Source of the DNA: a virus
IMG/VR virus record: IMGVR_UViG_3300023184_002538
Span: 1 to 63,671 of that record
DNA: 63,671 bases
Strand: one strand, 5' to 3'
Part shown: positions 9,074 through 47,757 of the stretch, piece after piece
Layout of the letters: every line of letters begins with the position of its first letter
Numbering within the stretch: the stretch's first letter is position 1
The notes under the pieces: generated by a model
What the model was told of the DNA's origin: nothing
Databases searched by the model: none
Seen by the model: the letters and a program-made list of their open reading frames with translations, nothing else
Made by a program: the position numbers and the translations under genes

Positions 9074-9608
9074 ATTAATAGAGTATCTGAACAAAAACAA
9101 AATATCTTTAGGTTTGTCAAATAACAATAGTGAACTGCGATTTATAAACAATGATAAAGGTTATGGTAAATTTGCTATACAGGATATATCAAAAGATAGC
9201 ATAATATATAGATTTGGTGGACTTTGGATTAACAAAGAAGAACAAGCAACTTTTGATCAAGATTATTTTCATTTAGTTGATAATGCTTACTTTTTTCAAG
9301 GTGGGCTCGATCCTACATTAAATGGTACACATAATCACAGTTGCAGTCCTAACGCTTATATTGAAGATAATACTATACGAGCATTACGAGATATAGTAAT
9401 TGGAGAAGAAATAACTATAGATTATGGATCATTTATAGTACATGATTATATTATAGTTGATAAGTGCAAGTGTGGCTCTACTGATTGTAGGAAAACTATT
9501 ACTGGGCATGATTGGTTGAATTACAATCTTGCTAAAAAATATAATAATAGAGTTAGCGGGCAGGTGCGGCGTTTAACTGAAGATACTCAAAAAACTTTTG
9601 ATACTTAG
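9063..9608 (+). CDS. SET-domain methyltransferase-like protein
   Basis: This 181-aa protein shows a compact SET domain. It has GYGKFAIQDI (residues 33-42) for S-adenosylmethionine binding, NHSCSPN (91-97) and GEEITIDYG (114-122), the pseudoknot pair with the catalytic Tyr, and a post-SET zinc motif CKCGSTDCR (135-143). All main motifs are present, so activity is plausible. SET proteins methylate lysine on proteins such as histones, ribosomal proteins and cytochromes; the target here is unknown. It is coupled to the PP-loop gene by an 11-bp overlap. Its last 56 bp run antisense to the end of the aminotransferase gene. Rare in phages; a protein substrate made in the island or a host protein would fit. 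Confidence 0.85.
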   Translation: MKLKLIEYLNKNKISLGLSNNNSELRFINNDKGYGKFAIQDISKDSIIYRFGGLWINKEEQATFDQDYFHLVDNAYFFQGGLDPTLNGTHNHSCSPNAYIEDNTIRALRDIVIGEEITIDYGSFIVHDYIIVDKCKCGSTDCRKTITGHDWLNYNLAKKYNNRVSGQVRRLTEDTQKTFDT

Positions 9609-10611
9609 ATATATCTGATATAAACATAGGAACAAAAATTAGAGTATTTTCATAATTGCGTATTATGTATCCTAACTTCTTTAGTTCTCTTCTTGCTACA
9701 TCTCCATCTGGAACTTCTATACCAAATAACAATCCGTAGTTTCTAAATTGTACTGTTGTTAATTTATCAACTATCGCAGTTTCTAATTGTTTTCTATTGT
9801 TATAATTTGCTTTGTATAGTTCTAATGACTTTAATAATAATGCACTACCTATCGGATGTCCACTCATTGTGATCCCGTAATCAAATACTTCGTTGGTATT
9901 TTGAATATAGGACATTATTTCTTCAGTAACCATAGTAGCACTAAAAGGAAACAATCCGTTAGTGAGTCCTTTGCTAACAATAATGATATCGGGATTTATG
10001 CTTTTATCAATCTCAGTTCTTCCTAGTCCTGTTACTGTCTCATCAAATATAATAAGGAATTTATGTATTTTACGTAATCGATCTAATTCTAATAATCCTT
10101 CTTTAGGATATTCTAATACACCATTAGTAGTCATTACAGGCTCTATTATAACGGCTGCTGTATTTTCATTAACACACTCTGCAATATTATCACATAGTGT
10201 TGTTATATTATCGCTGCCGTGATATGCTTCTTTATGAGATAACACTTCTGTTTTTTTGTTGTTACAAAATCTAGTAATATAAATGGCTGTTCGTATAGCA
10301 TCACTGCCACCTGTACCAAAATATACTCCCGCCATGTTGTAGTGATCAGTTATAGCATTAGCAGCCTGTTCTGTTATATCAGTAGTTGACCAAAAACAAT
10401 TTGGGTAATATTGTAACTGATTATACTGCTTTTCGTATATACCTTTATAATGATCGCAGTTGTATCCGTAATTTACATTCCATAGCCCCGATGTAAGATC
10501 GTAGTATGTATTATCATTGGACTTTAATATATCGTCTTTACCATATACAAATATTTCAGGATGTTGCATCCTGGAATGATCCGTGTGTGAAAATAGTTGT
10601 TTACTTGACAT
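9553..10611 (-). CDS. Class III PLP-dependent aminotransferase-like protein
   Basis: This 352-aa protein has fold-type I, class III features: a GTGGSDA phosphate loop (99-105), AYHGSD (129-134), IIEPV (155-159), IIFDETVTGLGR (187-198) and the Schiff-base lysine in VSKGLTNG (Lys near 214). It resembles glutamate-1-semialdehyde mutase, BioA and ornithine-type aminotransferases but is about 70-100 residues shorter. Its N-terminus is a short DLTSGLWNVNYGY segment. It probably transfers an amino group to an aldehyde or keto substrate. It overlaps the B12-type radical-SAM gene upstream by 11 bp, so the two belong to one operon. The donor and acceptor cannot be read from the sequence. Confidence 0.88.
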   Translation of the reverse strand: MSSKQLFSHTDHSRMQHPEIFVYGKDDILKSNDNTYYDLTSGLWNVNYGYNCDHYKGIYEKQYNQLQYYPNCFWSTTDITEQAANAITDHYNMAGVYFGTGGSDAIRTAIYITRFCNNKKTEVLSHKEAYHGSDNITTLCDNIAECVNENTAAVIIEPVMTTNGVLEYPKEGLLELDRLRKIHKFLIIFDETVTGLGRTEIDKSINPDIIIVSKGLTNGLFPFSATMVTEEIMSYIQNTNEVFDYGITMSGHPIGSALLLKSLELYKANYNNRKQLETAIVDKLTTVQFRNYGLLFGIEVPDGDVARRELKKLGYIIRNYENTLIFVPMFISDISKYQKFFEYLQLNAAPAR

Positions 10612-12256
10612 TATACTTCAACACATCCTCATGATACTTAGCAATCCATTCCATATTTTGTTGATATACTTCTAGCGGTACTTCTTTAGCAGTAAGTATT
10701 TTTACAGTTTGTTTGTGATCGTATCCTAGGCTACGAACCCTTGGATATGCCCAAAAACTGGTATTAAAATTAGCGTGTCTTTCAAATAGAGTATGCGGAT
10801 GATCTTCCATTATATCTTCCCATTTTAATGCAATCTCTTTGCATTGCTCTAAGTTAAGAGTTTCGTGTTCCCAGTAATATTCTGGATGCCATTCTAATTT
10901 TGTAAATCCATATTTTTCTTTACGTTCACTAAAGTCATTTGTAGAGCGTCCCCCTGAATCAGATATGAATAAAATTTCATATTGTGCTTTGTCAAGATAC
11001 CGCTGGTCTCGTAACCAATGAACAGTATCCATTAATGACTCTTCTGTTTCGCCCACTAGACCTATAATAAAACTAGCCAGTATGAATATATCATCTCCTG
11101 CTGTTTCTTTTAACCATTTGATAATGTCTTTGATCTTATCAGGATGTAAACCTTTGCCGGCAATTTTTGCTGCTTTGTGATTAAATGTTTCAACCCCAAG
11201 GAACATTCCCCTGCATCCCATCTTGAGCATCTTGTCAAGCATCTGAGGATATTTATGAAACATGTCAGGGCGAGTATACGCAACCCATTCTATCTTAAAA
11301 GGTAAACTAGTTATAACATCATACATCATATCTATCTTTGCCATACTATCGTTAACTGTATCATCAGTTAATGTGTATCCTACAGTTCCAAAATTTTCGT
11401 AGTTATATATCAGTTCATTTCTTAAATGATCGCCGTCTTTAATCACTGTTCCGCTATGATCGTAAAAACAAAACTTGCAACCAAATCTACAACCCTTGCT
11501 GATCTCCAAAGGCAACCATTCTTTAGGTTGTATAGCATAATTTTTCTCCCACTTGTTAGGAATGATAATAGCACCTTTACCGGCAAGTAGAGGTTGGTCA
11601 ATAAACTTTACAGTTTCTCTTTCAAATATATCACTTGGGTCTATTTCATTTTTTAAGAACTTAATAATAGTTTCTTCGCCGTAGCCGTGAAATGCATAGT
11701 CAACATAATCAGTCATTCCTTTTGGTAAAGGCTTTTTGCTTTTATTTGTTATAAAGTTTTTAAAGAATGTATCAACTAATGCACCGCCAATAATAATTTT
11801 AGCCTTGGGTGCTATACTTTTTAATTTATCAAACCATTCACACAATTCCTCATGCGTGAAGAACCAAAGATTAAAAGCACTCTGACGTGGATTAAAAGGG
11901 TTATGCAAGAATGTTAAACTCAATGCTATGTACTCTAGATCATCAGTGACAAGTTGTTCAAATACTTCAAAGAAGTTATCTAACTTAGTAAAATAATCTA
12001 GTACCACAACATCATATTCTGGAATATGTTGTTTTATACTACCTGCCACGACATATGGACCTAAGTATCTACTCCAGAAATTGTATTTGTTTGCTACACC
12101 GTAATTACCAACCTTGTGTCCATCTTTACCTACTAAAGAATTTAACTCAGCAAAATATAATTTTTCTCTGTTCTCCTCGTTGAGGAAATGCGATCGTGGC
12201 ACACACTTTTGATTTTTTACATCAAATATATCATTTAGAAAAATTATTCTACTCAT
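10601..12256 (-). CDS. Radical SAM protein with N-terminal B12-binding-like domain (1)
   Basis: This 551-aa protein has the radical SAM cluster motif KGCRFGCKFCF (Cys 256, 260, 263; CxxxCxxC). It is preceded by about 240 residues with Rossmann-like strands (YDVVVLDYFT, AKIIIGGALVD, DYAFHGYGEETI) typical of cobalamin-binding radical SAM proteins. GVETFNHKAAKIAGKGL and IGLVGETEESL are normal class B strand motifs. Class B enzymes methylate unreactive carbons or catalyse ring changes. No classical DxHxxG cobalamin motif is obvious. It is followed in tandem by a paralogue (4-bp overlap) and precedes the aminotransferase. Its substrate is unknown. Confidence 0.88.
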   Translation of the reverse strand: MSRIIFLNDIFDVKNQKCVPRSHFLNEENREKLYFAELNSLVGKDGHKVGNYGVANKYNFWSRYLGPYVVAGSIKQHIPEYDVVVLDYFTKLDNFFEVFEQLVTDDLEYIALSLTFLHNPFNPRQSAFNLWFFTHEELCEWFDKLKSIAPKAKIIIGGALVDTFFKNFITNKSKKPLPKGMTDYVDYAFHGYGEETIIKFLKNEIDPSDIFERETVKFIDQPLLAGKGAIIIPNKWEKNYAIQPKEWLPLEISKGCRFGCKFCFYDHSGTVIKDGDHLRNELIYNYENFGTVGYTLTDDTVNDSMAKIDMMYDVITSLPFKIEWVAYTRPDMFHKYPQMLDKMLKMGCRGMFLGVETFNHKAAKIAGKGLHPDKIKDIIKWLKETAGDDIFILASFIIGLVGETEESLMDTVHWLRDQRYLDKAQYEILFISDSGGRSTNDFSERKEKYGFTKLEWHPEYYWEHETLNLEQCKEIALKWEDIMEDHPHTLFERHANFNTSFWAYPRVRSLGYDHKQTVKILTAKEVPLEVYQQNMEWIAKYHEDVLKYNVK

Positions 12257-13785
12257 ATGTTATTCAGTTTTAAATATTTATTGGCTAGGTTTCTATATCT
12301 CAAAGCGTGTTCATTTATCCACCATTGATTATGTTTGTTAGCAGATCTCAATTCATCATGTGTGAATCCTAAATTACTACATCTACTATAACCTAAGTAA
12401 GACGTCATTAATCTACGCTTCCAGGATTCGCTATTCTGAGCATATTCTATTAACTCAATCATCTTTGACTTTGATATGTCACCGTTGGTCCAGTCTTCAA
12501 CATAATACCCACTGGTATTTAATGCCATAGATACATTGTATCCAAATTTTTGAGGTTGTTTCTGTATTTTACTAAAGTTTATTGTGTATTCTTTACTAGG
12601 CGTATAAGATCCTATGTATAGTGGAGTTATTTCCCATGCATCTAACCATGTTTGAGTTTCAATCCAGTTTACTAGTGCTGTTGTAGATTGCATATCCTCG
12701 CCTGGCAACCCTAATATAAATCCACTGCCCATTATAATATCATCTTTCCATTTAGACTTACAGGCATCTAGGGAACTTTCTATAACATCACGTTTAGTTA
12801 TCTTTCCTATCAATGGGCCAACATCATCTGTTATAGTTTCAATGCCCCATTGAATGCTTTTACATCCACTTTCATAGATCATATCTATCATTTCTGTTTT
12901 GGTGTGTAGTATATCTAATCTACCAAATCCAGTCCATGTTATTTTAAAAGGCAAATTGGTAAACAATCGATGGATCATCTCCATCTTCTTCATGTTTTCG
13001 TTTATTTGAAAGTCTGTAGTCATATAATGACTTATTCCGAATCTTTCATAGTTTTCAAGTAATGTATCTCGAAGGACAGTTTCATCTAATGTCCAAGTGT
13101 TTACTTCTTTTTTTTGATAATCGCAAAACGCACAATTAAAAGGGCAACCTCTTGATATTTCTAAAGGAACTGCTTCGCCTGGAAATAAGAAGTCAGATTC
13201 ATTCCATAATATTTTACTGTTTATAAAATTATGTTCTGTTATTGATCCGTAATCTAATTCAGACTTAATTTTAAGAGGCAATGGTTTATTGTTAGCAAGT
13301 GATTCTGCTATTTGAACAATAGCAACATCTGCCATTCCTCCTACCCAATGATCAACAAATGGATAATGCTTTTGTAATGCTTCTTTCTGTGCAACTTTTT
13401 GGCCACCTACTATTATTTTTAACTTAGGGAATCGACCCTTGGCGTATGATATCCATTCTTGCATTTCATCTGCATTAAATGGGAAGTACACATTCCACAT
13501 ATCATTCTTGCGTGTTCTGCTATCTTTTGACCAATGGGTTTCCCAATCTTCGGGCATTAATTTGCTAAAGTGTGTTGAACTAAATCCAAGGAATAATGTT
13601 TCATTGGAAACAAAATTATCTAATACAGTTTTAAATCTATTAAAATTAAAATGACTAAAGAAATCAATTACCTTAGTTTGGTATCCTGCTTCCCTTAATC
13701 GTGAACTAACTGTATAACATCCTGCATCACGACCCCATCCTATACTACCGTTGCATTCTGTAAAAAATAAAGCATGATATGTCAT
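12253..13785 (-). CDS. Radical SAM protein with N-terminal B12-binding-like domain (2)
   Basis: This 510-aa protein is a paralogue of the next gene in the operon. Its cluster motif SRGCPFNCAFCDY holds Cys 214, 218 and 221. The N-terminal half has LKIIVGGQKVAQ and a DHWVGGMAD segment, as in cobalamin-binding radical SAM proteins, and the C-terminal half has GIETITDDVGPLIGK and FILGLPGEDMQST. The start MTYHALFFTECNGSIGWG overlaps the GNAT gene stop by 4 bp. A pair of tandem B12-type enzymes suggests two successive steps on one substrate (inference). DNA is markedly AT-rich, as in the whole island. Confidence 0.87.
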   Translation of the reverse strand: MTYHALFFTECNGSIGWGRDAGCYTVSSRLREAGYQTKVIDFFSHFNFNRFKTVLDNFVSNETLFLGFSSTHFSKLMPEDWETHWSKDSRTRKNDMWNVYFPFNADEMQEWISYAKGRFPKLKIIVGGQKVAQKEALQKHYPFVDHWVGGMADVAIVQIAESLANNKPLPLKIKSELDYGSITEHNFINSKILWNESDFLFPGEAVPLEISRGCPFNCAFCDYQKKEVNTWTLDETVLRDTLLENYERFGISHYMTTDFQINENMKKMEMIHRLFTNLPFKITWTGFGRLDILHTKTEMIDMIYESGCKSIQWGIETITDDVGPLIGKITKRDVIESSLDACKSKWKDDIIMGSGFILGLPGEDMQSTTALVNWIETQTWLDAWEITPLYIGSYTPSKEYTINFSKIQKQPQKFGYNVSMALNTSGYYVEDWTNGDISKSKMIELIEYAQNSESWKRRLMTSYLGYSRCSNLGFTHDELRSANKHNQWWINEHALRYRNLANKYLKLNNI

Positions 13786-14225
13786 AATTTAATTATTGCG
13801 TAACAGTTTTCATCTGATGTATCAGTTTTGAAAAACTCGCTTGATTTTTCAAAACCCGCAGATAGATAAGTAGACAGTGCTGTCTTTCGTGGGACGCTCC
13901 AGCAGTATTCGCACCCTTCTATCTTACCTAATTTAACTGTGTATTCCAATAGTTGTTTTCCTATACCTTTGTTCCTATATTCATCAAAAACATAAAGTCC
14001 TCTAGATCTAAACTCTGTTTGAGAACTTTTGTGAGCGCTATTAATGCCTACTATATTATTATCAATGTAATAGGCAAAAAAATAAGGTGTATATCTATTG
14101 TATATTTTAACATCATATCCAGAAAGATACTGCATAGAACTCATATTTTTTATATCAATTCTTCCAGGCCATAAGAATTGTTGCCAAATTGGAAGTATCT
14201 TACTGTACTCAATTAAGTCTATCAT
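13782..14225 (-). CDS. GNAT-family N-acetyltransferase
   Basis: From ATG 14225 this is 147 aa; an upstream TTG at 14243 is possible but has no ribosome binding site. The acetyl-CoA motif A reads EYRNKGIGKQLLEYT, and a later YLSAGFEKSSEFF segment corresponds to motif B. The family moves an acetyl group to an amine on an amino acid, sugar or protein end. The start overlaps the hydroxylase-like gene by 17 bp and the stop overlaps the radical SAM gene, so it is in the middle of a coupled operon. Substrate unknown. Confidence 0.8.
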   Translation of the reverse strand: MIDLIEYSKILPIWQQFLWPGRIDIKNMSSMQYLSGYDVKIYNRYTPYFFAYYIDNNIVGINSAHKSSQTEFRSRGLYVFDEYRNKGIGKQLLEYTVKLGKIEGCEYCWSVPRKTALSTYLSAGFEKSSEFFKTDTSDENCYAIIKL

Positions 14226-14799
14226 AATTATGTAATAAGTCAAATACTAAATGTATCCTAAATTCTTTCGAAGCATTCATTGCTGTATGCGGAACTGTTG
14301 TATTAGCAATCCACCACGAGTTTTGTTCTAAATGTAATACTTCGTCCTGGACTACCATTAAGCAACCTTCTTGTGTTTTTACAGGATAATGTAATCTATA
14401 TCCGGGATCCACATGCCAACTTAAACAAGTTTTAGATTCTGATTTCATTAATCTAGATCTACCAATCTTATATCTAGTATTCACTGTATTGTATATATCC
14501 TCAAATATAGTATTCTTAAATTGATTACATAATATTACAAATTCAGATTCATGTATAATAACATCCCTAAACGGAACAACTTGCTTGACTACACCATTTG
14601 GATCAACTTCTTCCCTTTTCTTATCCCAATCGTACTGTAAACTGCCTACACCAAGTTTATAGTTGTCAGGTTGATCAATAGTTGAGTTTAAACATATTTG
14701 TCCTGTATTCCATTCTATTGTATTTGATTTTAGTAATGCTGTCATTTCCTCAAATACTCCTGTGAAAACAGGTAGGTCTATTTTTTCAAAGTATTTCAT
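14209..14799 (-). CDS. Aspartyl/asparaginyl beta-hydroxylase-like 2OG-Fe(II) protein
   Basis: From ATG 14799 (AAGGAAATATAT just upstream) this is 196 aa. The Fe-binding pattern is SWHVDPGYRLHYPV (His and Asp of an HxD, then His) with a distal VPHTAMNAS...RIHLVFDL. This arrangement matches the Asp_Arg_Hydrox cupin-like fold of aspartyl/asparaginyl beta-hydroxylases. Such enzymes use 2-oxoglutarate, iron and oxygen to hydroxylate Asp, Asn or Arg in peptides or as free amino acids. ATGA overlap with the upstream kinase-like gene indicates coupling. A peptide or amino-acid-derived substrate for the operon would fit. Confidence 0.8.
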   Translation of the reverse strand: MKYFEKIDLPVFTGVFEEMTALLKSNTIEWNTGQICLNSTIDQPDNYKLGVGSLQYDWDKKREEVDPNGVVKQVVPFRDVIIHESEFVILCNQFKNTIFEDIYNTVNTRYKIGRSRLMKSESKTCLSWHVDPGYRLHYPVKTQEGCLMVVQDEVLHLEQNSWWIANTTVPHTAMNASKEFRIHLVFDLLHNYDRLN

Positions 14800-15374
14800 A
14801 TATATTTCCTTAATATAGTTTTTAAATTGGGATCTATTTTTGACAACCAATTATCAATAGAGTGTAGTTCCCAAACTTTAGATTCTTCTGTACGTGTTGT
14901 AGCATATTTAAAATCAAATGCTTTAATATTGCCATCTGCTCCTACAAGATTGCATAGAGCATTGTTAATCTTATGTACATTATGTTCTTGAAATAACGCA
15001 AACATTTCTTCAAGTTGATCTATAATTTTAGGAAATTGTATTTTTAAATTAGGAAATTGATCTTTTACTGTATGACCTCTCTCATGTAATAGATCAGGAC
15101 CAATCCATTCTTGCAGTAGATAATAGCCTTGTTCTTCAGTTAACTCTCCGTGCTCATATGTTTCTAATATAAGTTTAGATTTTAGTTTAGTTGACCAGTA
15201 AATCTCATTTTCAAATAACTTAGTTATTTCTTCCATACTGGTATGGTATATTTTTCCAGTGATAGTAGTATTGTTTGGTCTGTAATATTTTTTTACTAAT
15301 TTCTTTTCTCTATCAATCCATACTTCTGCTAACGATCCACGAGAACCAATATCAGTTTGGAATAGTTGATACAT
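14796..15374 (-). CDS. Protein-kinase-like-fold protein
   Basis: From ATG 15374 this is 192 aa. It opens with a glycine-rich strand (DIGSRGSLAEVWID) and a Lys-rich strand (KKLVKKYYR). Then come a hinge-like YYLLQEWIGPDLL, a helical segment ending HNVHKINNALCNLVG and FDFKYATTR. These resemble a kinase nucleotide loop, hinge, catalytic loop and a degenerate DFG-like site of the small-molecule and LPS-kinase type. The HRD-type catalytic Asp is not evident, so it may be a pseudokinase or a divergent phosphotransferase. The ATG lies one base after the upstream stop. Family assignment is tentative. Confidence 0.5.
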   Translation of the reverse strand: MYQLFQTDIGSRGSLAEVWIDREKKLVKKYYRPNNTTITGKIYHTSMEEITKLFENEIYWSTKLKSKLILETYEHGELTEEQGYYLLQEWIGPDLLHERGHTVKDQFPNLKIQFPKIIDQLEEMFALFQEHNVHKINNALCNLVGADGNIKAFDFKYATTRTEESKVWELHSIDNWLSKIDPNLKTILRKYI

Positions 15375-15375
15375 T

Positions 15376-16113
15376 TTAACAATCCATATTATTAATAACT
15401 TCTGAGTAATATACGTCAAGTAGATGGTTAACATATGGTATCTTGTCAGTACGGAAATTATTACCTATACTAGTTCGAAACCAGTTGATTATAGCATCGG
15501 TGTTTCTATCTACTAACAATGTACATAGATCAACTGACTGTGTTGGCCGCTTGTTATTAAAGTTAATAAAATAATCGTGCATGATTTCTTCGGGATGCGG
15601 ATAACATAACTGAAATCTATCGTGCTGATATCTAATTCCTCTATCAGTTGTCGGAACAATACTTATACATTTAACATTGTATCCTAATTCTCGTATCTCC
15701 TCATATGGTATTTTAGCATTCCATGAATGTATCCCATATAATATTCTATTACCTTGTATTGTATAATTTTCATCATCATAAAACTTTTGATTTTTAGATC
15801 CACGAACCCAACGCTGAGAAGATGCAACAAGGAATATGCTAAGAAATTCAAAAAATTGAATATAATCATATACACTAGTTGGTTCACATCTATTTAAAAA
15901 CCAGTTAGTGATTCGTTTTGGTATTTGAATATCATAATCGATTTCTTTTGATGCAGGATGATTTGTAATAGTATTGCTAGATAGCAAGTTTACATTATCA
16001 TAATTCATGGTAGAATCAAATTCTGACCAAATACGCATGAGAAGTTGCCCAGAGGATCCCGGTATATAATCAATTAACAAAAGTTCATTTTTTTCTAAAA
16101 ATGGATATTTCAT
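15376..16113 (-). CDS. Hypothetical protein with P-loop-like GSSG N-terminus
   Basis: This 245-aa protein begins with a strand-loop motif IDYIPGSSGQLLMRIW. It resembles the 5'-phosphosulfate or P-loop of sulfotransferase-like proteins, and it parallels MYRGGSGGEFL in the 306-aa protein at 19913. Later there is a conserved-looking YGIHSWNAKIPYEE and CISIVPTTDRGIRYQHDRF. No Walker B is clear. It overlaps the PLP-fold gene upstream by 4 bp. The function is unknown; a sulfotransferase-like or nucleotide-binding role is only suggested. Confidence 0.5.
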   Translation of the reverse strand: MKYPFLEKNELLLIDYIPGSSGQLLMRIWSEFDSTMNYDNVNLLSSNTITNHPASKEIDYDIQIPKRITNWFLNRCEPTSVYDYIQFFEFLSIFLVASSQRWVRGSKNQKFYDDENYTIQGNRILYGIHSWNAKIPYEEIRELGYNVKCISIVPTTDRGIRYQHDRFQLCYPHPEEIMHDYFINFNNKRPTQSVDLCTLLVDRNTDAIINWFRTSIGNNFRTDKIPYVNHLLDVYYSEVINNMDC

Positions 16114-16889: not shown

Positions 16890-16893
16890 GGGC

Positions 16894-16901
16894 TATAAAT
16901 A
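16894..16901 (+). promoter_or_regulatory. T4-type late promoter box (plus)
   Basis: A perfect TATAAATA lies 28 bp before ATG 16929 of the QueC-like gene. A second copy on the other strand is only one base away. Confidence 0.7.
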
Positions 16902-16902
16902 A

Positions 16903-29838: not shown

Positions 29839-29842
29839 ATCC

Positions 29843-38485: not shown

Positions 38486-38486
38486 A

Positions 38487-39293: not shown

Positions 39294-41058
39294 TGTTATT
39301 CCATTTGTTAATAAGTTTCAGGAACTCATCTTTTTCTAATAATTTATCATATATTTCAGATGCCATTTTAAAATGTGAATTTGGACCTTGATGAGCACAA
39401 TCTCTTGCAATATTCTCTTTGAATTTTTTATACTGTTCTTCAACATATATTTCGTTTTTCATAACTACAGGTATAAAATGTTCTTCTAACTCTTTTGGAT
39501 AGTCAATATTTCCAAAGTCGCCTGCCCAACAACTAAAAAACCAAGGAATATTTTTAGAGTTTAGATAATACTTTATAAAAAGCAAATTCTGAAAATAATC
39601 GTGATAACACTGCCGTAATTCCATAGTTCTTTCTAAATGATCAATTATCTCTTGTTTTTCAATTTCAGAAGGATTTGTAGACTTAGGTTGACCCGGTAAG
39701 AAATCTATAATGTATCCTTCTCCATTGCTATTTGTTGTTATTAGTTCTCTTCTGGTAAGGGGTGGTACCAATATATACACAAGGTCAGGCCTAGCACCTT
39801 TATGTTCTATAGAAACATATACGTATCGTATTGCAGCATCTGCACTAATACCTCCTCTACCTATATTAAATTTAGCAACAGGCAAATTAGTAAATTCAGT
39901 AAATTTATCTGTAAGGAATGTATGCCACAAATGATTTTCCGGCATACCTATTCCTTCAGTAACCGAACAGCCACTCACTAAAACTGTAGGATAATTATAT
40001 GCTTCTTCAAACTCTCGAAGTCCGTTCTCGGGAATTCTAAACCCATATGAATTATGTTGGTACCATATATCAGTTTCTCCATACGTTATATATTTTTTTG
40101 TTTCTCTCCAAAATTTTGTTGTTCTATCAAACGTGTATGGATCATCTGGACATAACCAATAAGATGTAGTATTAATGAATGCCCCTGGTTTAAAATTATA
40201 TTTGTTCCATAAGTTATGACTACTTACATCCTCTGCTGACCTAAATTTAAAATCAGGAGTAACAACTTCCCAAACATTATCTGCCATACTAAAAAATTTC
40301 TTATTTTTTGATTCAAACCACTCTTTGCATTTTAGTTTGGTTTCATTATAATTAATATTTCCAGCACCTCTGCAAGTGCTTCTTGCTATTGTCCACCGAG
40401 AAGGAATATTCATAAACCTATTGTAGTTTAATAAAAAATAATCTGCTAAAAATTTATGAATATCAACTACTGGTCCGGGCGAATATTTTGATGGTGGGTC
40501 TTCATATACATTTTTAAGAAATGGTTTTATTGATATATTAAGAAGTTTTAAAATACTGTTTTGAGTTCCTATAAACATTACATCTGAAACTTTTTGTATA
40601 GTGTCTATAGGAAAAGGTACATTTAATTGCCCTCCACACAGCCCGTATATATCATTATCATCATTTGATGTGTTAAACAAAAAATTTCTAAAAAACTCTT
40701 CATCATAATCTAACACAATATCCGGTCTTATTAGAATAACCCTATCATAAATTATACCAGACTTCTGCATTAATGAAATAACAGAATGCCAACGATCTAT
40801 CATATAACCGTTGTATCCAACTTTCATGTATTCATTTATATCAGCAATATCTAAATCTTTCAATTTAATTAAATTGCGTATTTGTTCTTCACTTATGTGT
40901 TCTTCTATTATAGGCGCTCCAAAACGTTTGTTTACAAATCTACTTTCATTCCACGTAGAAAAATAACAATCTACATTTTGCCATTTTAAAAATGACCAAA
41001 ATTTATGTGCAAATTCAAATTCTCTGTATTCGCCTGATATTAATACTGCAATTTTCAT
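39283..41058 (-). CDS. Fusion of glycosyltransferase-like and SGNH-hydrolase-like domains
   Basis: A 591-aa protein. Residues 1-230 repeat the GT-like blocks MKIAVLISGEYREF, VDCYFSTWNES and VILIRPDIVL. Residues about 355-580 form an SGNH domain with VLVSGCSVTEGIG, FNIGRGGISADAAI, LVYILVPPLTRRE and DCAHQGPNSHFKMA as the C-terminal His block. Between them is a linker of about 120 residues. The neighbours carry the same two domains as separate genes (GT-like at 36995 and 41798, SGNH at 37700, 38487 and 41055), so this looks like a gene fusion of partners. Likely acts in adding and acylating or de-acylating a sugar. Confidence 0.7.
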   Translation of the reverse strand: MKIAVLISGEYREFEFAHKFWSFLKWQNVDCYFSTWNESRFVNKRFGAPIIEEHISEEQIRNLIKLKDLDIADINEYMKVGYNGYMIDRWHSVISLMQKSGIIYDRVILIRPDIVLDYDEEFFRNFLFNTSNDDNDIYGLCGGQLNVPFPIDTIQKVSDVMFIGTQNSILKLLNISIKPFLKNVYEDPPSKYSPGPVVDIHKFLADYFLLNYNRFMNIPSRWTIARSTCRGAGNINYNETKLKCKEWFESKNKKFFSMADNVWEVVTPDFKFRSAEDVSSHNLWNKYNFKPGAFINTTSYWLCPDDPYTFDRTTKFWRETKKYITYGETDIWYQHNSYGFRIPENGLREFEEAYNYPTVLVSGCSVTEGIGMPENHLWHTFLTDKFTEFTNLPVAKFNIGRGGISADAAIRYVYVSIEHKGARPDLVYILVPPLTRRELITTNSNGEGYIIDFLPGQPKSTNPSEIEKQEIIDHLERTMELRQCYHDYFQNLLFIKYYLNSKNIPWFFSCWAGDFGNIDYPKELEEHFIPVVMKNEIYVEEQYKKFKENIARDCAHQGPNSHFKMASEIYDKLLEKDEFLKLINKWNNNDR

Positions 41059-41795
41059 AAGTCTGAGTTATCAAATAAATTATTTTGATTTATATAATCT
41101 AACAAGTGGGTTGCCCACAACGCATGGCCTTCCTCTAATGGATGAAGCATAGGACCTATTTCACATTTATTAGCAGCAGCAAATGCAGTAAAACTAGGAG
41201 AAACGTAATATCTTTTTTTATATATTTGATCTAATAATTCTTGCTGTAGAACTTTTTTCTGTATATCTTCTTCTATTCCCATTGAACTTGTAATTAGATA
41301 TGGAATTTTATTGGCCTTTAAAAAATTCTGCATACCTAATAATATCATTATGTCAAAAGTAAAATGTCCATAATCATAATTAAAATCTTTTACAAGAACT
41401 TCCCATAAATCGTGATGATGCTTATTAACATTAGATGGAGGTTCCCAAGCATTAAGATGTATATAATAAACACCTTCATTGTTAAAACAAAATTCTCTTC
41501 GTGTAGCATGAGTTAAACTTATATTAACAAATATTTCTTCAGGCTTATATATTTTAAGTTTTTTAGATATATCGTTAATTAGGTTTCTGTAAGCACGTTC
41601 ATTTGAGCCACCAGGACATCCGGTGTTCTGATAATCTTCTATGCCTAATTTATCAGTAATAATACCAGTATAACAATGTTTTCTCTTATATGGAGTAAAC
41701 TGGAATAAATGAATGTTTTCAGATTCCTCTCCCTTTTCGTTTAGTTCGTGCCCAAATACAAATGAATCGCCGGTAGCATAAAACGATTTAATCAT
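41055..41795 (-). CDS. SGNH/GDSL-hydrolase-like protein (3)
   Basis: A 246-aa protein starting MIKSFYATGDSFVFGHEL, with NTGCPGGSNERAYRNLI as block II, IFVNISLTHATRRE as block III and GPMLHPLEEGHALWATHLL with the catalytic His. Overlaps the fusion gene by 4 bp. Substrate unknown. Confidence 0.7.
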   Translation of the reverse strand: MIKSFYATGDSFVFGHELNEKGEESENIHLFQFTPYKRKHCYTGIITDKLGIEDYQNTGCPGGSNERAYRNLINDISKKLKIYKPEEIFVNISLTHATRREFCFNNEGVYYIHLNAWEPPSNVNKHHHDLWEVLVKDFNYDYGHFTFDIMILLGMQNFLKANKIPYLITSSMGIEEDIQKKVLQQELLDQIYKKRYYVSPSFTAFAAANKCEIGPMLHPLEEGHALWATHLLDYINQNNLFDNSDL

Positions 41796-41797
41796 AA

Positions 41798-42583
41798 TTA
41801 GTTTTTATAAAAAGATATAGAATAGTTTGCTATCTGACCGTAGTCAGTTAACGGATTCAAGTTAACAACTTCGGGCCTAAACACAGTTGTTGGAAGATAT
41901 ATAACTCGCAATCTCAAATTCCTATCTTCAGCATAATCAGACATCGACGCACCGGGACCAATCCATTCCCAATCATCTCCTCTAGTTGATATTGAGTTTT
42001 TAGTTAATCGTCTATATAGATCTGATAACATATCCATTGCTGTTGAAGAACCATAGAAGAACTCATCAGATACATTAATCCTGCTAAATTCAAAATCCAT
42101 TCTTGCTTCATTGGTACAAAATATATCAAGATGATTATCTCTATTAGCATAATCGTTTATTGTAAACCTATATGTGGGATCAAATATTATATCATATCTA
42201 GATCTAACAACAAAGTCGTATCTGAAATTGTTTTCAATTTCGTATTGTTTTTTTAGATTGTTAGCACACATCATTGAATATGATAACGAATCCCATGGAA
42301 ATCGCCTGTTGTTAAAAGTACCAACTGATTCAATTGTAAACTTTTTAGGTTTATAAAGATTGATCTTTTCTGTTAACCAATTTACATCCACACTTTCGTC
42401 ACCATCCCAATACACAGGATGTTCATCGGGTTCCGGGTTTGGTTTTTTTCTTTTATAGGTATTATAGTCCCACGAATGACAGAAAAAGTCATAGTCGTGA
42501 TCTCCAGAAAAATATTGTAAAATATTCGGAGCAGAGTAATCTATAGTCCTAGGTTGTCCGCTTAAACAAATCGCTATTCTCAT
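41798..42583 (-). CDS. Glycosyltransferase-like protein of the SG-x-x-R type (2)
   Basis: A 261-aa protein starting MRIAICLSGQPRTIDYSAPN. It has YDFFCHSWDYNTYKRKK and YDFVVRSRYDIIF, the same blocks as the proteins at 36995 and 39283, and a C-terminal GDDWEWIGPGASMSDY. Putative GT-A-type sugar transferase. The start overlaps the previous gene by 35 bp. Confidence 0.62.
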   Translation of the reverse strand: MRIAICLSGQPRTIDYSAPNILQYFSGDHDYDFFCHSWDYNTYKRKKPNPEPDEHPVYWDGDESVDVNWLTEKINLYKPKKFTIESVGTFNNRRFPWDSLSYSMMCANNLKKQYEIENNFRYDFVVRSRYDIIFDPTYRFTINDYANRDNHLDIFCTNEARMDFEFSRINVSDEFFYGSSTAMDMLSDLYRRLTKNSISTRGDDWEWIGPGASMSDYAEDRNLRLRVIYLPTTVFRPEVVNLNPLTDYGQIANYSISFYKN

Positions 42584-43091
42584 AATTTATACATTCAGTT
42601 TTTATTTTAAGTGTTTTTAAAAAATAATAAAAGTCTTCACCTATTGTTCCTAGTTTTCTATCTTTAGGTAGCGTATGCAGTTTTAATCCAAAATTACATG
42701 CTAGGTCAAAGGTAACAGAATTAGAGAAAAATATTTGAGGTGATGCGCCGGTTGATCCTTTTAAAGAAAAGAAATCACCTTTGGCAAAATAAATCTTATC
42801 TTTATTATAGTAGTGTATATTTAATAAAATTTTATGGTTTAAAAAAAGATCAGCAGTATCGTCACTAGTGTCAATTGCTAGACAAACATCAAAATCTTTT
42901 TTATTAATTAATTCAGTTTGTCTCTTTTTAAAGGAAACTTTCCAAAGATTGTTGTATATATCGTTGTCTTCATAATGATTGAAATAGTTAATATTATATA
43001 GATAACTGAGGTTATCTGCACAATACTGTTTTATAACATGTTCGTTAGTGTTTGATATTCCATATAGACATACTGCTAGATCAGGCTTCAT
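42549..43091 (-). CDS. Hypothetical protein, divergent relative of the GT-like family
   Basis: From ATG 43091 (GGGGATAT upstream) this is 180 aa starting MKPDLAVCLYGISN. It shares the first strand and YNINYFNHYED with the GT-like family. It lacks the R-x-D strand pattern in recognisable form (DVCLAIDTSDD may replace it). FAKGDFFSLKGSTGASPQIFF is a distinctive internal segment. It overlaps the radical SAM gene before it by 11 bp. Function unknown. Confidence 0.5.
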   Translation of the reverse strand: MKPDLAVCLYGISNTNEHVIKQYCADNLSYLYNINYFNHYEDNDIYNNLWKVSFKKRQTELINKKDFDVCLAIDTSDDTADLFLNHKILLNIHYYNKDKIYFAKGDFFSLKGSTGASPQIFFSNSVTFDLACNFGLKLHTLPKDRKLGTIGEDFYYFLKTLKIKTECINYENSDLFKRTT

Positions 43092-44514
43092 ATATCCCCG
43101 TTTCAAAATTTCTTATACCATCCTTGTGCAGTTCCATAATTTCAAATACCTTAGGTACTTCAATAGCGTTATACCATGGTGCAATTTCTGGAAATGATTC
43201 TAATATGTTTTTACCTCTACGTTTGTCGTATTGTGTGAAAAAACTTTTAAAATCTACAAGCAATAGTTTTTTATCATCAGGCGCAAATACATGTCCTTTG
43301 TCCAATACTTCTATATAATCAAGGAGACGCTGTATCTGTGCCATCTCTCCGCTTAGAAATAATTTAGAGTCTTTATTTTTATCATACCAAACTTTTAATT
43401 TAGCATGTAGTTCTTTCTTAACATCATCAGGTAATGTAAGCGGACTCATAAAACTTGGCCAACGTAACATATTTAAAGATAGGTTAGGTCTGTGATGTCC
43501 GTACTTGCTCTTTAATTCAATTACATCATCTAAAAATTCTGTTATACTAAACAAACATAGATTGTTGATAGTCATCATAATAGTCAATGCTCTAAAATTA
43601 GCATTTTCTATAAAAGTTGATAGATTGTTACGCCACTGTTTGTAATCTAATCCATCTCTAATATATTCAGCATGGGCTCCAAAACTTTCATTGCTTGTGT
43701 ATAAATCAAATTCTTTGATTGGCAATGTTTTGGTCATGTTGATTAATTTTTCAAGAGCCTTATCACTCATGCCCAAATTACTATTAACTGCAAATCTTAA
43801 ATTCGTAGATTTGTTTTCATGTAGTATATCAACAAATCTCCAGAAGTTTTGACTCACTGTGGCTTCACCTCCGGTAATTCTAATCTCATCTAATGTTTTA
43901 GATAGTTCAGGCCACCATGCAAAGAATGCATCCACATATGGATTGTTTTCCATATGTCTCCCGTTTATCTCTGTCCAACTGCCGTCCGATTGATATGCTC
44001 CACCACCACCTCCCGGTGATGAGAAATTCTGATATGCCCCATTCTTTTCTAAATCTTGTGCCCATGTAGAACTATATCCTGCATTGCAATAACTACAGGC
44101 AAAATTACATTGTCTATCAAAACTTATCTCTAATGTTTTTAAATTAACATCAGCATTCCAGGGTAGATCTTTTAGTTTCTTAATATCTTCTTCACTATAT
44201 ATTTCACTCTTGTATATCCTATCACTAGGATTGTTTCTACCTATTCCTTCAATTTTCCAACAGTAAGAACATTCAGCAGGTTTTGCACCTTCTAGCATCA
44301 TCTTACGCATATTCTTTTTATGATCAGTATTATGTATCGCAGAAGGATTTGTTTTGATCTGTTCTATATCAATAGGATGTGGCAAGGGTAAATGGCAACT
44401 CATAGTTTGCCCACTACCTAAGTGTATACTGGCATTGTACCACTTGGCCGCACAGAAACTAGGACTTATAGAGTTTAGGTTCTTATCACGCCATTCAATT
44501 TGTTCATCACTCAT
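43081..44514 (-). CDS. Radical SAM protein, N-terminal twitch type (12)
   Basis: From ATG 44514 (AAAGGACC upstream) this is 477 aa. The N-terminal twitch has SPSFCAAKWYNASIHLGSGQ with a single Cys at 40 and CSYCWKIEGIG near 82. The radical SAM motif DRQCNFACSYC holds Cys 136, 140 and 143, then ITGGEATV, where A replaces P. A Gly-rich insert FSSPGGGGGAYQ follows the cluster loop. The tail DKRRGKNILESFPEIAPW fits the shared C-terminal motif. A close paralogue of the next gene upstream. Confidence 0.9.
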   Translation of the reverse strand: MSDEQIEWRDKNLNSISPSFCAAKWYNASIHLGSGQTMSCHLPLPHPIDIEQIKTNPSAIHNTDHKKNMRKMMLEGAKPAECSYCWKIEGIGRNNPSDRIYKSEIYSEEDIKKLKDLPWNADVNLKTLEISFDRQCNFACSYCNAGYSSTWAQDLEKNGAYQNFSSPGGGGGAYQSDGSWTEINGRHMENNPYVDAFFAWWPELSKTLDEIRITGGEATVSQNFWRFVDILHENKSTNLRFAVNSNLGMSDKALEKLINMTKTLPIKEFDLYTSNESFGAHAEYIRDGLDYKQWRNNLSTFIENANFRALTIMMTINNLCLFSITEFLDDVIELKSKYGHHRPNLSLNMLRWPSFMSPLTLPDDVKKELHAKLKVWYDKNKDSKLFLSGEMAQIQRLLDYIEVLDKGHVFAPDDKKLLLVDFKSFFTQYDKRRGKNILESFPEIAPWYNAIEVPKVFEIMELHKDGIRNFETGIYEA

Positions 44515-44515
44515 A

Positions 44516-45979
44516 TTAGTAAGGTCCTTTAGTTTGCCATCTGGTTGTACACATTTTGCATTGTGTAAAGAATTCTTCAAATTCTGGAAACGTTTCTACA
44601 AAATTAGTTCCTCTACGCAGATCATATTGAACTATATAATCTGCAAACTGACTTCTTAGGTGATTTAACTTTGCTGAATTTTTCTTAGATCCTAACGATA
44701 TCATCTCATCTCTAATAACATAAAATAAACGTTCAAATCTATTTACTTCATAATCAAAAAAGCCCTTTCCACATAGTGGTGGCCAATTCATATGATGTAT
44801 GTTTTTAAACATGTGTGTTACCGAATCTTCTACAATTGGTAGAAATTCTGCAGATGCAACCCAAGGTGCTAAGAACTCGGGCCAACGAACGTAAGGAACA
44901 TCAATAGACACAGGATTCTTTCTTATCGGTTGTTCTGTATATTTCCATTTCATATCAATAACATCATCCATTAGTAATTTAAAACTAGGGATGCTTAGAA
45001 TGTTATAGGCGGCCATGACTGCTAGATGTACATCTGGAATCTCAGAAAGGACTCTGTGACAGTTCTTTAACCAACGATCATAGTTTAATCCATATCGTAT
45101 ATACTCTGCATGTTTCCCATGCGCTTCATTGCTGGTGTACAGTTTAAATGACTTTACCGCTTTCTTTTCTTGAATGATCTGCATCTTTTTAATGAAAGTA
45201 TTCATTAAGTTAGCAGGAACATCAAGATTAGAATTAATGTTAAATTCCATTTCAGGCTGCGGATTATCAATTAGATAGTCTAACACTCTAAACACTTGTT
45301 TGCTTAATAACGGCTCGCCGCCAGTGATCCTAAATACTCTTAGATCTTTAACAGCAGATGGCCACCATGCCCAAAATGCATCTATATATGGATTTGGTTT
45401 AGTTATGGGCAAAGGCATTGAGTCTGTTTCTTTAAGATACTCTAAACTATGTAACGTTAAATTATCTAACTTATAAGGTCCATACTGCTCTATCTCCTGC
45501 CTCCATGTTGATGAATATGATGGAGAACAATATGCACATTTAAAATTGCATGTTGTATCAAACGATACTTCTAAGTACGTGGGATTAACATCAGCATCCC
45601 AAGGCTGTTTGGTAATCTGTTCTAGATAAGGTCTTGCCCAATATTCTGAACTTTTAGTTATACGGTCACTGAATGCACCGCTTTCATCATCTTCTACTTG
45701 TGCATCTTCTGCTCGCCAACAGTAATCACATTCTGCAGGACGAATGCCTTCAAGCATTAGTTTACGTTGTTCTTTTTTATAATCAGTATTGTGTAATGCA
45801 CTTGGAGAACGTTTGATTTCATCTAGTGATATCTTGTGTGGACTGGGATGATGACAACTATGTGTTTGCCCTTGCCCAAGATGCATAGACACTTGGTTCC
45901 ATTTGGCTACACACATACTCGGACTGACAAGGTCTAACTCTTTTTTAGTGTTTTTAAATCTGGCTGCGTGATTGGTCAT
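44516..45979 (-). CDS. Radical SAM protein, N-terminal twitch type (13)
   Basis: From ATG 45979 (AAGGAACAT upstream, ATGA overlap) this is 487 aa. The twitch segment reads SPSMCVAKWNQVSMHLGQGQ, with CDYCWRAEDA near 84. The radical SAM motif DTTCNFKCAYC has Cys 144, 148 and 151, then ITGGEPLL. The tail YDLRRGTNFVETFPEFEEFF is the clearest form of the shared C-terminal motif. It follows a repeat-containing glycosyltransferase-like gene in the same operon. Confidence 0.9.
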   Translation of the reverse strand: MTNHAARFKNTKKELDLVSPSMCVAKWNQVSMHLGQGQTHSCHHPSPHKISLDEIKRSPSALHNTDYKKEQRKLMLEGIRPAECDYCWRAEDAQVEDDESGAFSDRITKSSEYWARPYLEQITKQPWDADVNPTYLEVSFDTTCNFKCAYCSPSYSSTWRQEIEQYGPYKLDNLTLHSLEYLKETDSMPLPITKPNPYIDAFWAWWPSAVKDLRVFRITGGEPLLSKQVFRVLDYLIDNPQPEMEFNINSNLDVPANLMNTFIKKMQIIQEKKAVKSFKLYTSNEAHGKHAEYIRYGLNYDRWLKNCHRVLSEIPDVHLAVMAAYNILSIPSFKLLMDDVIDMKWKYTEQPIRKNPVSIDVPYVRWPEFLAPWVASAEFLPIVEDSVTHMFKNIHHMNWPPLCGKGFFDYEVNRFERLFYVIRDEMISLGSKKNSAKLNHLRSQFADYIVQYDLRRGTNFVETFPEFEEFFTQCKMCTTRWQTKGPY

Positions 45980-47757
45980 ATGTTCCTTAGTTTGTATTGT
46001 TCTTCTATCCACTCACGACTATTGATCATTCTAAGTAAATCATAATCGTCTTTGTTAATTGTAACCCAATCTATTGCACATTGGGCAGCATCTTTTGAAT
46101 ACTTATTGAGTCTGTGGGAGGTATTACCTTTTAACCATGTTTTTAATCTGGCCTTACTGTCTTTGTCTTTAGAGTTCTGTAAAACATTATAGCACAGTTT
46201 TGCACATTCCCTAAATGTACTTCGCCAAACTGAAATAGGATCTGTGTCAAATGCTGTTATATTACTGATTGTATCTATTATCTTAAGTTTATCTATAACT
46301 GTAGTTGATAGGTCCAATGTAGTCCAAGACTTAGCAGACAACATTGCTTGCTTAGAAAATAACTTTACTCCTCCGTATCCATACACCAATCCATTGATAG
46401 GATTTTTAGCACGCCAAATATGTGTGCAGTCTCTATCATGTATGTTAGGCTGATGATCAAATTGAAATTCATCAGTTAGGTAAGCATCACCGTCTACTAC
46501 AAAAAACATATCAGTATCAACTAATTTGGCTGCGGCTTGATGAGCATTGAATATACCCGTTACTCCATTTACACGCTTAGCCTTTGGTGCTTTTTCTAAT
46601 ACACGTTGCCAGTTTTCTTCTGCATTTGTTTCTTGATAACTTATAAAAACAACTTCAGGAATAGGAACATACATTTCTTTAATACCTTTACTGTCTTCAG
46701 TAGTAGATACTTTAAGAGCCCAAGTATCGTATTCATCATCCATATACCATATATGCTCATAGGCTAAGTCATGCCAAGGTATGATATAATCAGGAGTGAA
46801 GTTTAATTTAGGTACTTCGGAATTATATTCAACATGGTGCGTAGGACTAATGTAGTCTACAATCTTACTGTCATATATAGTTGGTGTTACCCTGGCCTTT
46901 ATGGCCCATATTTCATCTTCACCATTTTTTAAATGCTTATTATCTAACATCCATACATGTTCATATGCCAAATCATGATAAGGTATTACATAATCAATCA
47001 CATAATCCATCTTGGGCAAATCTGGATTATATTCAATATGATACTGAGGAGATATCGTTCCATACCATTTCCAACTGTTAATCTTTTTGTAGGCAGCAGT
47101 AAATTTGACCACCCACATTTGTTTATATGGGATATGTATTGGATCTAATTCCCAAGCACATTCGCTTCCTAAATCCCAATAAGCAGGATAACATTGATTG
47201 ATATCGATACCTAAATCAGGCAAGTCTTCATTATACTCAACATCAATTAAAGGCATAACATATCCCATGTCTTTGATACCTTTAACTTCTTTACCATAAG
47301 GCTTGCAACTCATGACCCATATTTTATCATCCGTAGGATTGACCCTGGGATCCATATACCAAACTAATTGATATATACTGTCCCATGGCTCTGGTTCAAA
47401 CTGTCCGTATGGATCATTTTCAAAAGTCATTACCTTATCTATATCTGGATTTCTATTCCATAATAGTTTAGGTTTGGTTATTTCTAATATCTCATAACCG
47501 ATCTCTGGTGTCCAATATCCATTGAACAACTTAGCAACCCAATCTCCTTGATATTGCCAAACTACACATTTATTTGTTGATGGCATATCATCTATATATG
47601 CTTTTAGTGTATCATCTTTTAACCATGGATTGAATGCTATAAATTTACCATAGTCATTACCCAGTCGGTACAACTGTATATCATAATCTATATGGTCACC
47701 AGTCCACTCTATAGATTTAACATCGTTTGGATTTATCTGTACAATTTCATCATTCAT
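45976..47757 (-). CDS. Repeat protein fused to a GT-A-like glycosyltransferase domain
   Basis: A 593-aa protein. Residues about 90-360 hold about four degenerate repeats of roughly 80 residues. The best two share EYNxDLPK, then IPYHDLAYEHVWMLD or IPWHDLAYEHIWYMD, and then a W-A-I/L-K strand. The C-terminal 220 residues start with PEVVFISYQETNAEENW and contain AKRVNGVTGIFNAH and FFVVDGDAYL, matching the GT-like protein at 34241. The repeats may bind a glycan or form a scaffold. It heads the operon that includes two twitch radical SAM genes. Confidence 0.65.
   Translation of the reverse strand: MNDEIVQINPNDVKSIEWTGDHIDYDIQLYRLGNDYGKFIAFNPWLKDDTLKAYIDDMPSTNKCVVWQYQGDWVAKLFNGYWTPEIGYEILEITKPKLLWNRNPDIDKVMTFENDPYGQFEPEPWDSIYQLVWYMDPRVNPTDDKIWVMSCKPYGKEVKGIKDMGYVMPLIDVEYNEDLPDLGIDINQCYPAYWDLGSECAWELDPIHIPYKQMWVVKFTAAYKKINSWKWYGTISPQYHIEYNPDLPKMDYVIDYVIPYHDLAYEHVWMLDNKHLKNGEDEIWAIKARVTPTIYDSKIVDYISPTHHVEYNSEVPKLNFTPDYIIPWHDLAYEHIWYMDDEYDTWALKVSTTEDSKGIKEMYVPIPEVVFISYQETNAEENWQRVLEKAPKAKRVNGVTGIFNAHQAAAKLVDTDMFFVVDGDAYLTDEFQFDHQPNIHDRDCTHIWRAKNPINGLVYGYGGVKLFSKQAMLSAKSWTTLDLSTTVIDKLKIIDTISNITAFDTDPISVWRSTFRECAKLCYNVLQNSKDKDSKARLKTWLKGNTSHRLNKYSKDAAQCAIDWVTINKDDYDLLRMINSREWIEEQYKLRNI

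Follow-up and report, generated by a model that had tools for sequence, protein, structure and literature searches.

The window considered here is the entire IMG/VR record IMGVR_UViG_3300023184_002538, a linear stretch of 63,671 bp from an uncultured marine phage, and our subject is the island of radical S-adenosylmethionine (rSAM) enzyme genes that it contains. Because the complete record is linear and 63,671 bp long, the window represents a fragment of a phage genome, and the 14 rSAM genes reported below are a count within the window rather than for the whole genome. The island runs without gaps from g04 (9553) to g41 (47757), approximately 38 kb, with a coding density of approximately 100%; the rSAM genes occupy 48% of its length, and 30 of the 33 same-strand junctions overlap by 1-65 bp when the longest open reading frames (ORFs) are taken. 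The GC content of the island is 0.33, compared with 0.38 and 0.43 in the flanks. An all-against-all blastp within the island showed that the rSAM groups are paralogous and that the pyridoxal phosphate (PLP) enzyme, QueC-like and glycosyltransferase-like genes also occur in pairs.

PF04055 has exactly 14 matches in the window, at 10.6-46.0 kb, in genes with no internal stops, and each of the 14 proteins carries one CxxxCxxC motif, which places all of them in the rSAM superfamily. In g19, g22, g26 and g40 the PF04055 score (20.0-28.8 bits) lies under Pfam's 29.5 in hmmscan, with the motif kept; g19, g22 and g40 nonetheless exceed the cut-off of the N_Twi_rSAM family (NCBIfam NF033640; at least 170 bits over the full profile). 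All rSAM genes lie on the minus strand, except for g13 and g26. The B12-type pair consists of g05 (10601..12256; PF04055 1.1e-15) and g06 (12253..13785; 6.8e-12); a B12-binding match (PF02310) is found in g06 only and is weak (21 bits vs a cut-off of 32.1), and the NCBIfam family nearest to g05, the PhpK-type P-methyltransferases (TIGR04479), scores 97 bits against a cut-off of 600, which leaves g05 outside that family. Two proteins, g14 (18798..19916; 1.4e-15) and g17 (21467..22669; 3.1e-15), have an early motif and C-terminal cysteines. The SPASM-like pair consists of g23 (28756..29889; 7.6e-8) and its paralogue g26 (31721..32830, plus strand; 20 bits). The remaining eight are N-twitch proteins, seven of which score 295-407 bits with NF033640: g13 (17645..18817, plus strand; 313 bits), g18 (22666..23985; 295 bits, also matched by PF04055), g19 (23955..25391; 347 bits), g20 (25388..26527; 297 bits), g22 (27351..28763; 407 bits), g39 (43081..44580; 308 bits) and g40 (44516..46012; 312 bits, 38% identical to g39). 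The eighth, g24 (29843..31018; PF04055 2.2e-7), matches across its whole length at 146 bits, under the cut-off. Compared by sequence with solved structures, the rSAM groups gave generic core matches only. The initial annotation had counted at least 14 intact rSAM genes and had divided them in this same way, and both the count and the division hold; it had also placed the island at 9553-46012 with overlaps of 1-44 bp, of which the start and the overlapping itself stand, whereas the end extends to g41 and the overlaps span the wider range given above.

A relative of g22 is encoded in at least 183 IMG/VR stretches, and the best 80 of these (67-84% identity) were taken as the set of related loci; clustering at 97% identity reduces them to 52 groups, since several of the contigs come from the same virus. 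The order g41, g25, g23, g22 on one strand is found in 68 of the 68 loci holding all four genes, and 35 of 41 viral records contain g14, the others possibly being truncated. Family counts are bimodal: genes of the g22, g23, g25 and g41 types and a small protein, c4, occur in 61-80 of the 80 loci (g23 in 79 and g25 in 77), and other families in at most 25. The N-twitch proteins of the loci and the window form 40 clusters; among the 330 full-length ones, CxxxCxxC is kept in every case and four auxiliary cysteines upstream of it in 323. In a 48-sequence alignment of g22, C13, C31, C96, C99, C152, C156 and C159 are invariant. Longer stretches are shared as well, since the window run g21-g20-g19-g18-g17-g16 recurs in locus L028 and most of it in L011 and L055. 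Sugar-type genes in the relatives include a UDP-sugar dehydrogenase, a DegT aminotransferase and a cytidylyltransferase. In 66 of the 80 loci (e.g. L004:8693-8920), the c4 protein (72-77 aa) is encoded between the homologues of g25 and g23. It is conserved along its full length, unlike a leader and core peptide, and was not found in the window, in INPHARED or in the bacterial loci described below. Among cultured phages, a near-identity search of INPHARED with the island returned no match, tblastn with g40 and g41 returned none, and tblastn with g22 returned only weak Vibrio phage matches and one marine virus record.

The bimodal counts therefore describe a constant core ringed by accessory enzymes that vary from phage to phage. 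Judged from gene content and order, the island is both one putative pathway and a mixture, in layers: a fixed core and a changing accessory set. The earlier proposal of a multi-step pathway thus finds support in the conserved core order, which the gene-order check suggested at the time has brought out, but not in the form of a single linear route of 14 steps. Disabled cluster cysteines, which had been named as a possible refutation, were not seen. The density of rSAM genes is indeed far above that of cultured phages, in line with the earlier claim about usual phages: six cultured T4-like or jumbo genomes (141-469 kb) have 0, 4, 0, 2, 6 and 5 PF04055 matches. On the other hand, this phage is not exceptional: 41 IMG/VR records of g22 relatives hold 5-25 rSAM genes per record, and a T4-like genome described as having 12 was published in 2017 (PMC5332604).

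A counterpart of the core is found on bacterial chromosomes. A genome scan with the N-twitch alignment gave matches mainly in Bdellovibrionota, where loci carry adjacent orthologues of g22 (47-60% identity), g14 (57-65%) and g23 (41-47%), clearly apart from the bacterial paralogues (at most 36%, 24% and 32%, respectively). The 192 Bdellovibrionota genomes sampled include 11 with a close g22 orthologue (52-61% identity), and every one of these also carries g14; of the 181 others, a single genome has g14, 611 bp from a contig end (Fisher p 5e-17). Reciprocal best hits with the window number 14 and 12 for two chromosomal islands, located on contigs of 937 and 350 kb, respectively. Those in both islands include g13 (58%, in genome G052, and 49%), g12 (39% to a QueC-like gene of G052), g19, g25 (41% in G052), g26 and g29; g21 (41% to a G052 island gene) and g27 (42% in G052) are reciprocal best hits in one of the two, and the g23 orthologue of the G052 island is 42% identical. 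In total, approximately ten further island genes besides g22, g14 and g23 have orthologues in these islands, which also carry UDP-sugar dehydrogenase, GT2 and PMT_2 genes and one of which adjoins envelope glycan genes. What is new here is the appearance of orthologues of g22, g14 and g23, together with other island genes, as chromosomal islands of Bdellovibrionota; no functional account of Bdellovibrionota N-twitch rSAM islands was found in the papers searched.

In the g22 tree, whose outgroup paralogues have very long branches, the phage proteins fall into a single group with good support, and this group includes sequences from two low-GC contigs that were binned as Chloroflexi and Acidimicrobiaceae and are probably of phage origin. 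Low-GC, rSAM-rich contigs of this kind were seen in metagenome-assembled genomes (MAGs) of Acidimicrobiaceae, Chloroflexi and Gammaproteobacteria (L102, L112, L096 and L108); they are phage-like, i.e. binning contamination or infection. The 18 bacterial genomes and MAGs reached by the scan have 6-33 N_Twi_rSAM genes each. A separate observation concerns genome G053, where a chromosomal stretch (contig 1, 745-775 kb; L119-L121) holds approximately 15 N-twitch rSAM genes in 30 kb; these have only distant matches to the phage set and represent a second, different type of N-twitch island.

Predicted structures were obtained for two core proteins. The AF2 model of g22 is confident (pLDDT 90), and its nearest folds, CteB, BlsE, SkfB, viperin, SuiB and anSME, are tied (Z 10.5-12.1; rmsd 3.5-5.2 Å over 190-230 residues, 10-15% identity). 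Because enzymes of peptides, nucleotides and sugars tie among these best matches, the fold does not select a substrate. In g41 (45976..47757, minus strand), which consists of N-terminal tandem repeats and a C-terminal GT-A domain, residues 355-593 are modelled mostly with confidence; residues 364-525 give Z 10-11 against GT-A and nucleotidyltransferase folds, Foldseek lists glycosyltransferases at E ~1e-4, and D424 is invariant. By its modelled fold and metal-binding acidic motif, g41 thus qualifies as a predicted GT-A glycosyltransferase. The tandem repeats of g41-type proteins are approximately 100 aa each and reach up to approximately nine copies depending on the phage (e.g. L003:4374-7574), for protein lengths of ~220-1066 aa; by eye, they resemble degenerate copies of the first half of the glycosyltransferase domain.

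The other genes of the island and its borders, on the minus strand unless stated otherwise, are as follows. An A-type Fe-S carrier (g01, 7792..8151; IscA/SufA-like, PF01521 Fe-S_biosyn 1.9e-18) adjoins the island and is a plausible source of Fe-S clusters for its enzymes. It is followed by a PP-loop ATPase (g02, 8186..9073, plus strand), whose NAD_synthase/QueC match is weak and under the cut-off, a SET-domain protein (g03, 9063..9608, plus strand; PF00856 2.6e-13) and a class III aminotransferase (g04, 9553..10611; PF00202 5e-39). Beyond the B12-type pair lie a GNAT acetyltransferase (g07, 13782..14243; PF13508), an aspartyl/asparaginyl hydroxylase-like protein (g08, 14209..14850; PF05118 5e-11), a protein that is kinase-like by eye (g09, 14796..15434), g10 (15376..16113) and a PLP-enzyme-like protein (g11, 16110..16889; weak Aminotran_1_2 match) whose paralogue is g21 (26524..27351; blastp 1.5e-18). 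No Pfam or PHROG match was found for g09, g10 or g15 (19913..20833), and ten unassigned island genes compared with PHROGs gave no match. Two QueC-like PP-loop genes each stand beside an rSAM gene: g12 (16929..17648, plus strand), which overlaps g13 by 4 bp, and g16 (20830..21510), next to g17; with PF06508 scores of 16.2-21.8 bits (21.8 for g12) vs a cut-off of 22, the QueC-like genes fall outside the QueC/preQ0 family. A QueC-like gene also lies near two rSAM genes in Vibrio phage KVP40 (L139, 132061-138921), as a small analogue of g12-g13 and g16-g17. These KVP40 genes were rejected as homologues of g12, g16 and g17, since the QueC comparison was not significant (E 0.1-0.9) and only a weak rSAM-motif match was found.

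The core gene g25 (31018..31662) has no Pfam match and is methyltransferase-like, with 28% identity to a 'putative methyltransferase' of Pelagibacter phage Mosig. After g26 come a short-chain dehydrogenase-like gene (g27, 32827..33381, plus strand; PF00106 weak), a methyltransferase-like gene (g28, 33378..34208; PF08241 weak), a GT-A-like glycosyltransferase paralogous to g41 (g29, 34241..35116; blastp 6e-24), a carbamoyltransferase (g30, 35113..36585; PF16861 3e-54, PF02543 3e-37) and a SnoaL-like gene (g31, 36582..36998; PF12680 1.3e-6). By eye, g32 (36995..37693) is glycosyltransferase-like and a paralogue of part of g35 (blastp 1.3e-19), g33 and g34 (37700..39293) are SGNH-hydrolase-like and g35 (39283..41058) is a glycosyltransferase-like and SGNH-like fusion, all without a Pfam match; g36 (41055..41795) is a DUF6071 protein (PF19547 4e-13), and g37 and g38 (41798..43106; weak DUF7796 match in g37) are again glycosyltransferase-like by eye. 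The island is adjoined by the tail-type proteins g42-g44 (47804..51866), of which g42 and g44 have no family match and g44 is 26% identical to a tail-region protein of the relative G002; farther on lies a GDP-mannose 4,6-dehydratase (g45, 51971..53005, plus strand; PF16363 1.5e-139). The glycine-rich g43 (49263-51059) ends in a Hint (intein/hedgehog-like) domain, which is unusual in a tail protein, and a large tail fibre at 2223-4811 has collagen-like GFTGS repeats followed by AIGxxAG-type repeats. The composition of the window shifts at approximately 52 kb, and its right end (55500-63671) has a GC content of approximately 0.47 and many small plus-strand ORFs, unlike the island.

A T4-type gp23 capsid gene was found in 7 of the 23 relatives' records searched and is absent from the window fragment. 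The gp23 of G002 is 71% identical to those of the jumbo phages Vibrio 2.275.O (349 kb) and Sinorhizobium Phosso (469 kb), and two relatives lie on contigs of more than 300 kb. The G002 island, which holds homologues of g41, g25, c4, g23, g22 and g14, has tail-fibre-type genes on both sides. By their capsid sequences, the relatives with this gene are assigned to the T4-like phages, and the window phage is probably T4-like and jumbo as well. The DNA ligase was uninformative as a lineage marker, being less than 60% identical to many phages.

With respect to timing, TATAAATA, the T4 late-promoter consensus, has five occurrences in the window, below the 12.4 expected, and four of the five lie in two divergent gaps, on both strands: 8152-8185 and 16890-16928, the latter with matches at 16894-16901 (plus) and 16903-16910 (minus). 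In the de-duplicated relatives, the two A5T3 octamers, out of 56, that are most often located in the 80 bp upstream of a gene are ATAAATAT (18 occurrences) and TATAAATA (15), vs a mean of 4.5. This modest signal suggests that the island is expressed late alongside the tail genes. A scan for sigma-70 promoters and terminators gave nothing above shuffles.

Based on the results presented above, the island is best explained as a biosynthetic cassette of the tail region that carries the viral version of a pathway also present on Bdellovibrionota chromosomes. As to what is made, we tentatively favour, at somewhat less than an even chance, a hypermodified surface glycoconjugate built by a constant radical core and variable tailoring enzymes; we infer a single product of saccharide nature, expressed late and displayed on the virion or host surface. 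The core comprises the GT-A glycosyltransferase g41, the methyltransferase-like g25 and the rSAM trio g22, g23 and g14; alongside it stand N-twitch rSAM paralogues, B12-type rSAM proteins and tailoring enzymes in a set that changes between phages. Nucleotide sugars would be joined by the glycosyltransferases into a saccharide-like scaffold attached to a carrier or a protein, on which the trio would perform an invariant radical modification, with the A-type carrier g01 helping to supply Fe-S clusters. The variable enzymes, namely N-twitch rSAM proteins, the hydroxylase, acetyl-, methyl- and carbamoyltransferases, QueC-like ligases and PLP enzymes, would then decorate the scaffold phage by phage, and the product, made late in infection, may be displayed on the tail fibres of the virion or on the surface of the infected cell, where it might alter adsorption or exclude rival phages. 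A surface glycoconjugate is favoured over a peptide or a soluble product because sugar-type genes accompany the core (in the window, the GDP-mannose dehydratase at 52 kb, the carbamoyltransferase and the GT-A fold of g41), the g22 fold is neutral and no precursor gene fits. Several points weigh against it. Neither a substrate nor an acceptor, flippase or export gene could be identified in the window; SPASM and twitch rSAM enzymes of known function act mostly on peptides or proteins, as SET and aspartyl hydroxylase enzymes usually do, and the closest folds of g22 do not favour sugars. In addition, the glycosyltransferase calls for g32, g35, g37 and g38 were made by eye only, the AF2 confidence for the g41 repeats is too low for use, and the evidence for late promoters is modest. 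The target of an island carried by a phage could also be a host metabolite that has nothing to do with surfaces.

The same enzymes might instead act on a phage protein (tail fibres, the g41 repeats or a small precursor), which the rSAM proteins, hydroxylase, SET protein and acetyl- and methyltransferases would hypermodify and the glycosyltransferases glycosylate. Proteusin-type clusters of ribosomally synthesized and post-translationally modified peptides (RiPPs) hypermodify their precursor in such a manner, and the twitch/SPASM architecture, the presence among the best folds of g22 of the RiPP maturases CteB, SkfB and SuiB as well as anSME, the protein-type modifiers SET and aspartyl hydroxylase and the adjoining tail-fibre genes all agree with this idea. 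The conserved c4 protein of approximately 75 aa between g25 and g23 is a further point in favour, but its absence from the window and the Bdellovibrionota loci means that the trio does not require it as a substrate, and it was rejected as an obligate precursor. Its conservation over the whole length is likewise unlike that of a leader and core. Since coding density is approximately 100%, the window island leaves no space in which a precursor gene could lie, and the precursor gene beside the maturases that marks a RiPP cluster is lacking there. We regard protein hypermodification as rather unlikely, although it retains appreciable weight. A diffusible nucleoside- or aminoglycoside-like molecule, such as an antimetabolite against competitors or an effector of host takeover, is less probable still. 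Carbamoyltransferases, QueC-like proteins, PLP enzymes and B12-type rSAM enzymes are common in clusters for such compounds and are all present in the island, one of the tied best folds of g22 is that of BlsE (cytosylglucuronate decarboxylase) and an amidinotransferase-like family was seen by eye in the relatives; this explanation must contend with the QueC-like genes being under family cut-offs, with the consistent location among tail-fibre genes and with the fact that no transporter or self-resistance gene was seen.

Hypermodification of phage DNA or tRNA bases by the QueC-like, rSAM and PLP enzymes is highly improbable. QueC-like PP-loop, PLP, GNAT and rSAM genes do occur in known DNA-modification pathways, but the QueC matches of g12 and g16 are weak and under the cut-off, no FolE, QueD, canonical QueE or thymidylate hydroxymethylase-type gene is present among the annotated island genes, and one bacterial island adjoins envelope glycan genes. 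It is also conceivable that a hypervariable phage region simply collects unrelated rSAM genes, with no single pathway. The great difference in accessory families among phages (the 40 N-twitch clusters) points in this direction, and pelagimyophages have been described as carrying radical SAM cassettes in hypervariable host-recognition islands (PMC7029224). However, random order and independent presence or absence of the core were tested and not seen: the core order is invariant, g22 and g14 co-occur almost perfectly in two unrelated settings, and longer common runs (L028, L011 and L055) and gene overlaps are present. Independent acquisition is therefore very unlikely, while the accessory genes may still be mosaic.

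Radical SAM enzymes perform chemistry that few other enzymes can, and devoting half of a 38-kb island to them implies a large gain. The trio conserved in phages and Bdellovibrio-like bacteria constitutes a defined three-enzyme system that is expressible and testable. Should the product prove to be a surface molecule, a new chemical layer would be added to phage-host recognition in the ocean, and N_Twi_rSAM, a family of unknown function, would gain its first candidate functions. It is possible, though on balance doubtful, that jumbo T4-like phages and Bdellovibrionota share an undescribed biosynthetic class, in which the fixed g22/g23/g14 core and a repeat-bearing glycosyltransferase would make a new glycoconjugate scaffold diversified by combinatorial N-twitch enzymes, such that phages would vary a radical-modified surface molecule as bacteria vary their O-antigens.

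Among known systems, the environmental T4-like genome TARA_ERS488813_N000010 (Nishimura et al. 2017, PMC5332604) is marine and, compared by description, resembles the window in its many rSAM genes (12 vs 14) and its A-type Fe-S carrier. The portions of that paper drawn on here explain the rSAM genes as Fe-S metabolism and describe neither a pathway nor an island order, a core trio, a link to glycosyltransferases or a counterpart in bacteria. In the pelagimyophages, the hypervariable host recognition cluster (HRC; PMC7029224, mSystems 2020) lies in the structural and tail-fibre region and contains glycosyltransferases and radical SAM cassettes, again with no pathway in the sections considered. 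The islands of the window's relatives are likewise hypervariable, placed in the tail-fibre region and equipped with glycosyltransferases and rSAM genes, but the capsid of the relatives is closest to jumbo phages, the rSAM genes are more numerous and the core is common with Bdellovibrionota; of VrlC and gp14, the landmarks between which the HRC lies, neither was seen in the window. The cultured T4-like Pelagibacter phage Mosig EXVC030M (MT647606) has an island between its tail fibres and VrlC/gp8 with the g25-related methyltransferase, a carbamoyltransferase, aspartyl hydroxylases and three MoaA-type annotations, as in the window, but it has only two PF04055 matches and no g22 or g41 homologue was found in it. 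At the protein level, the auxiliary-cluster cysteines of g22 are N-terminal, unlike those of CteB, SkfB, SuiB, BlsE, anSME and viperin, and the N_Twi_rSAM family, which takes in seven window proteins above its cut-off, provides a name without a function and leaves g14 and g23 outside. The closest resemblance in gene content is to the Bdellovibrionota islands, which hold the same trio together with glycosyltransferase, methyltransferase, short-chain dehydrogenase, PLP, QueC-like and g13 orthologues; they differ in lying on bacterial contigs of 350-937 kb and, in one case, in having envelope GT2 and PMT_2 genes.

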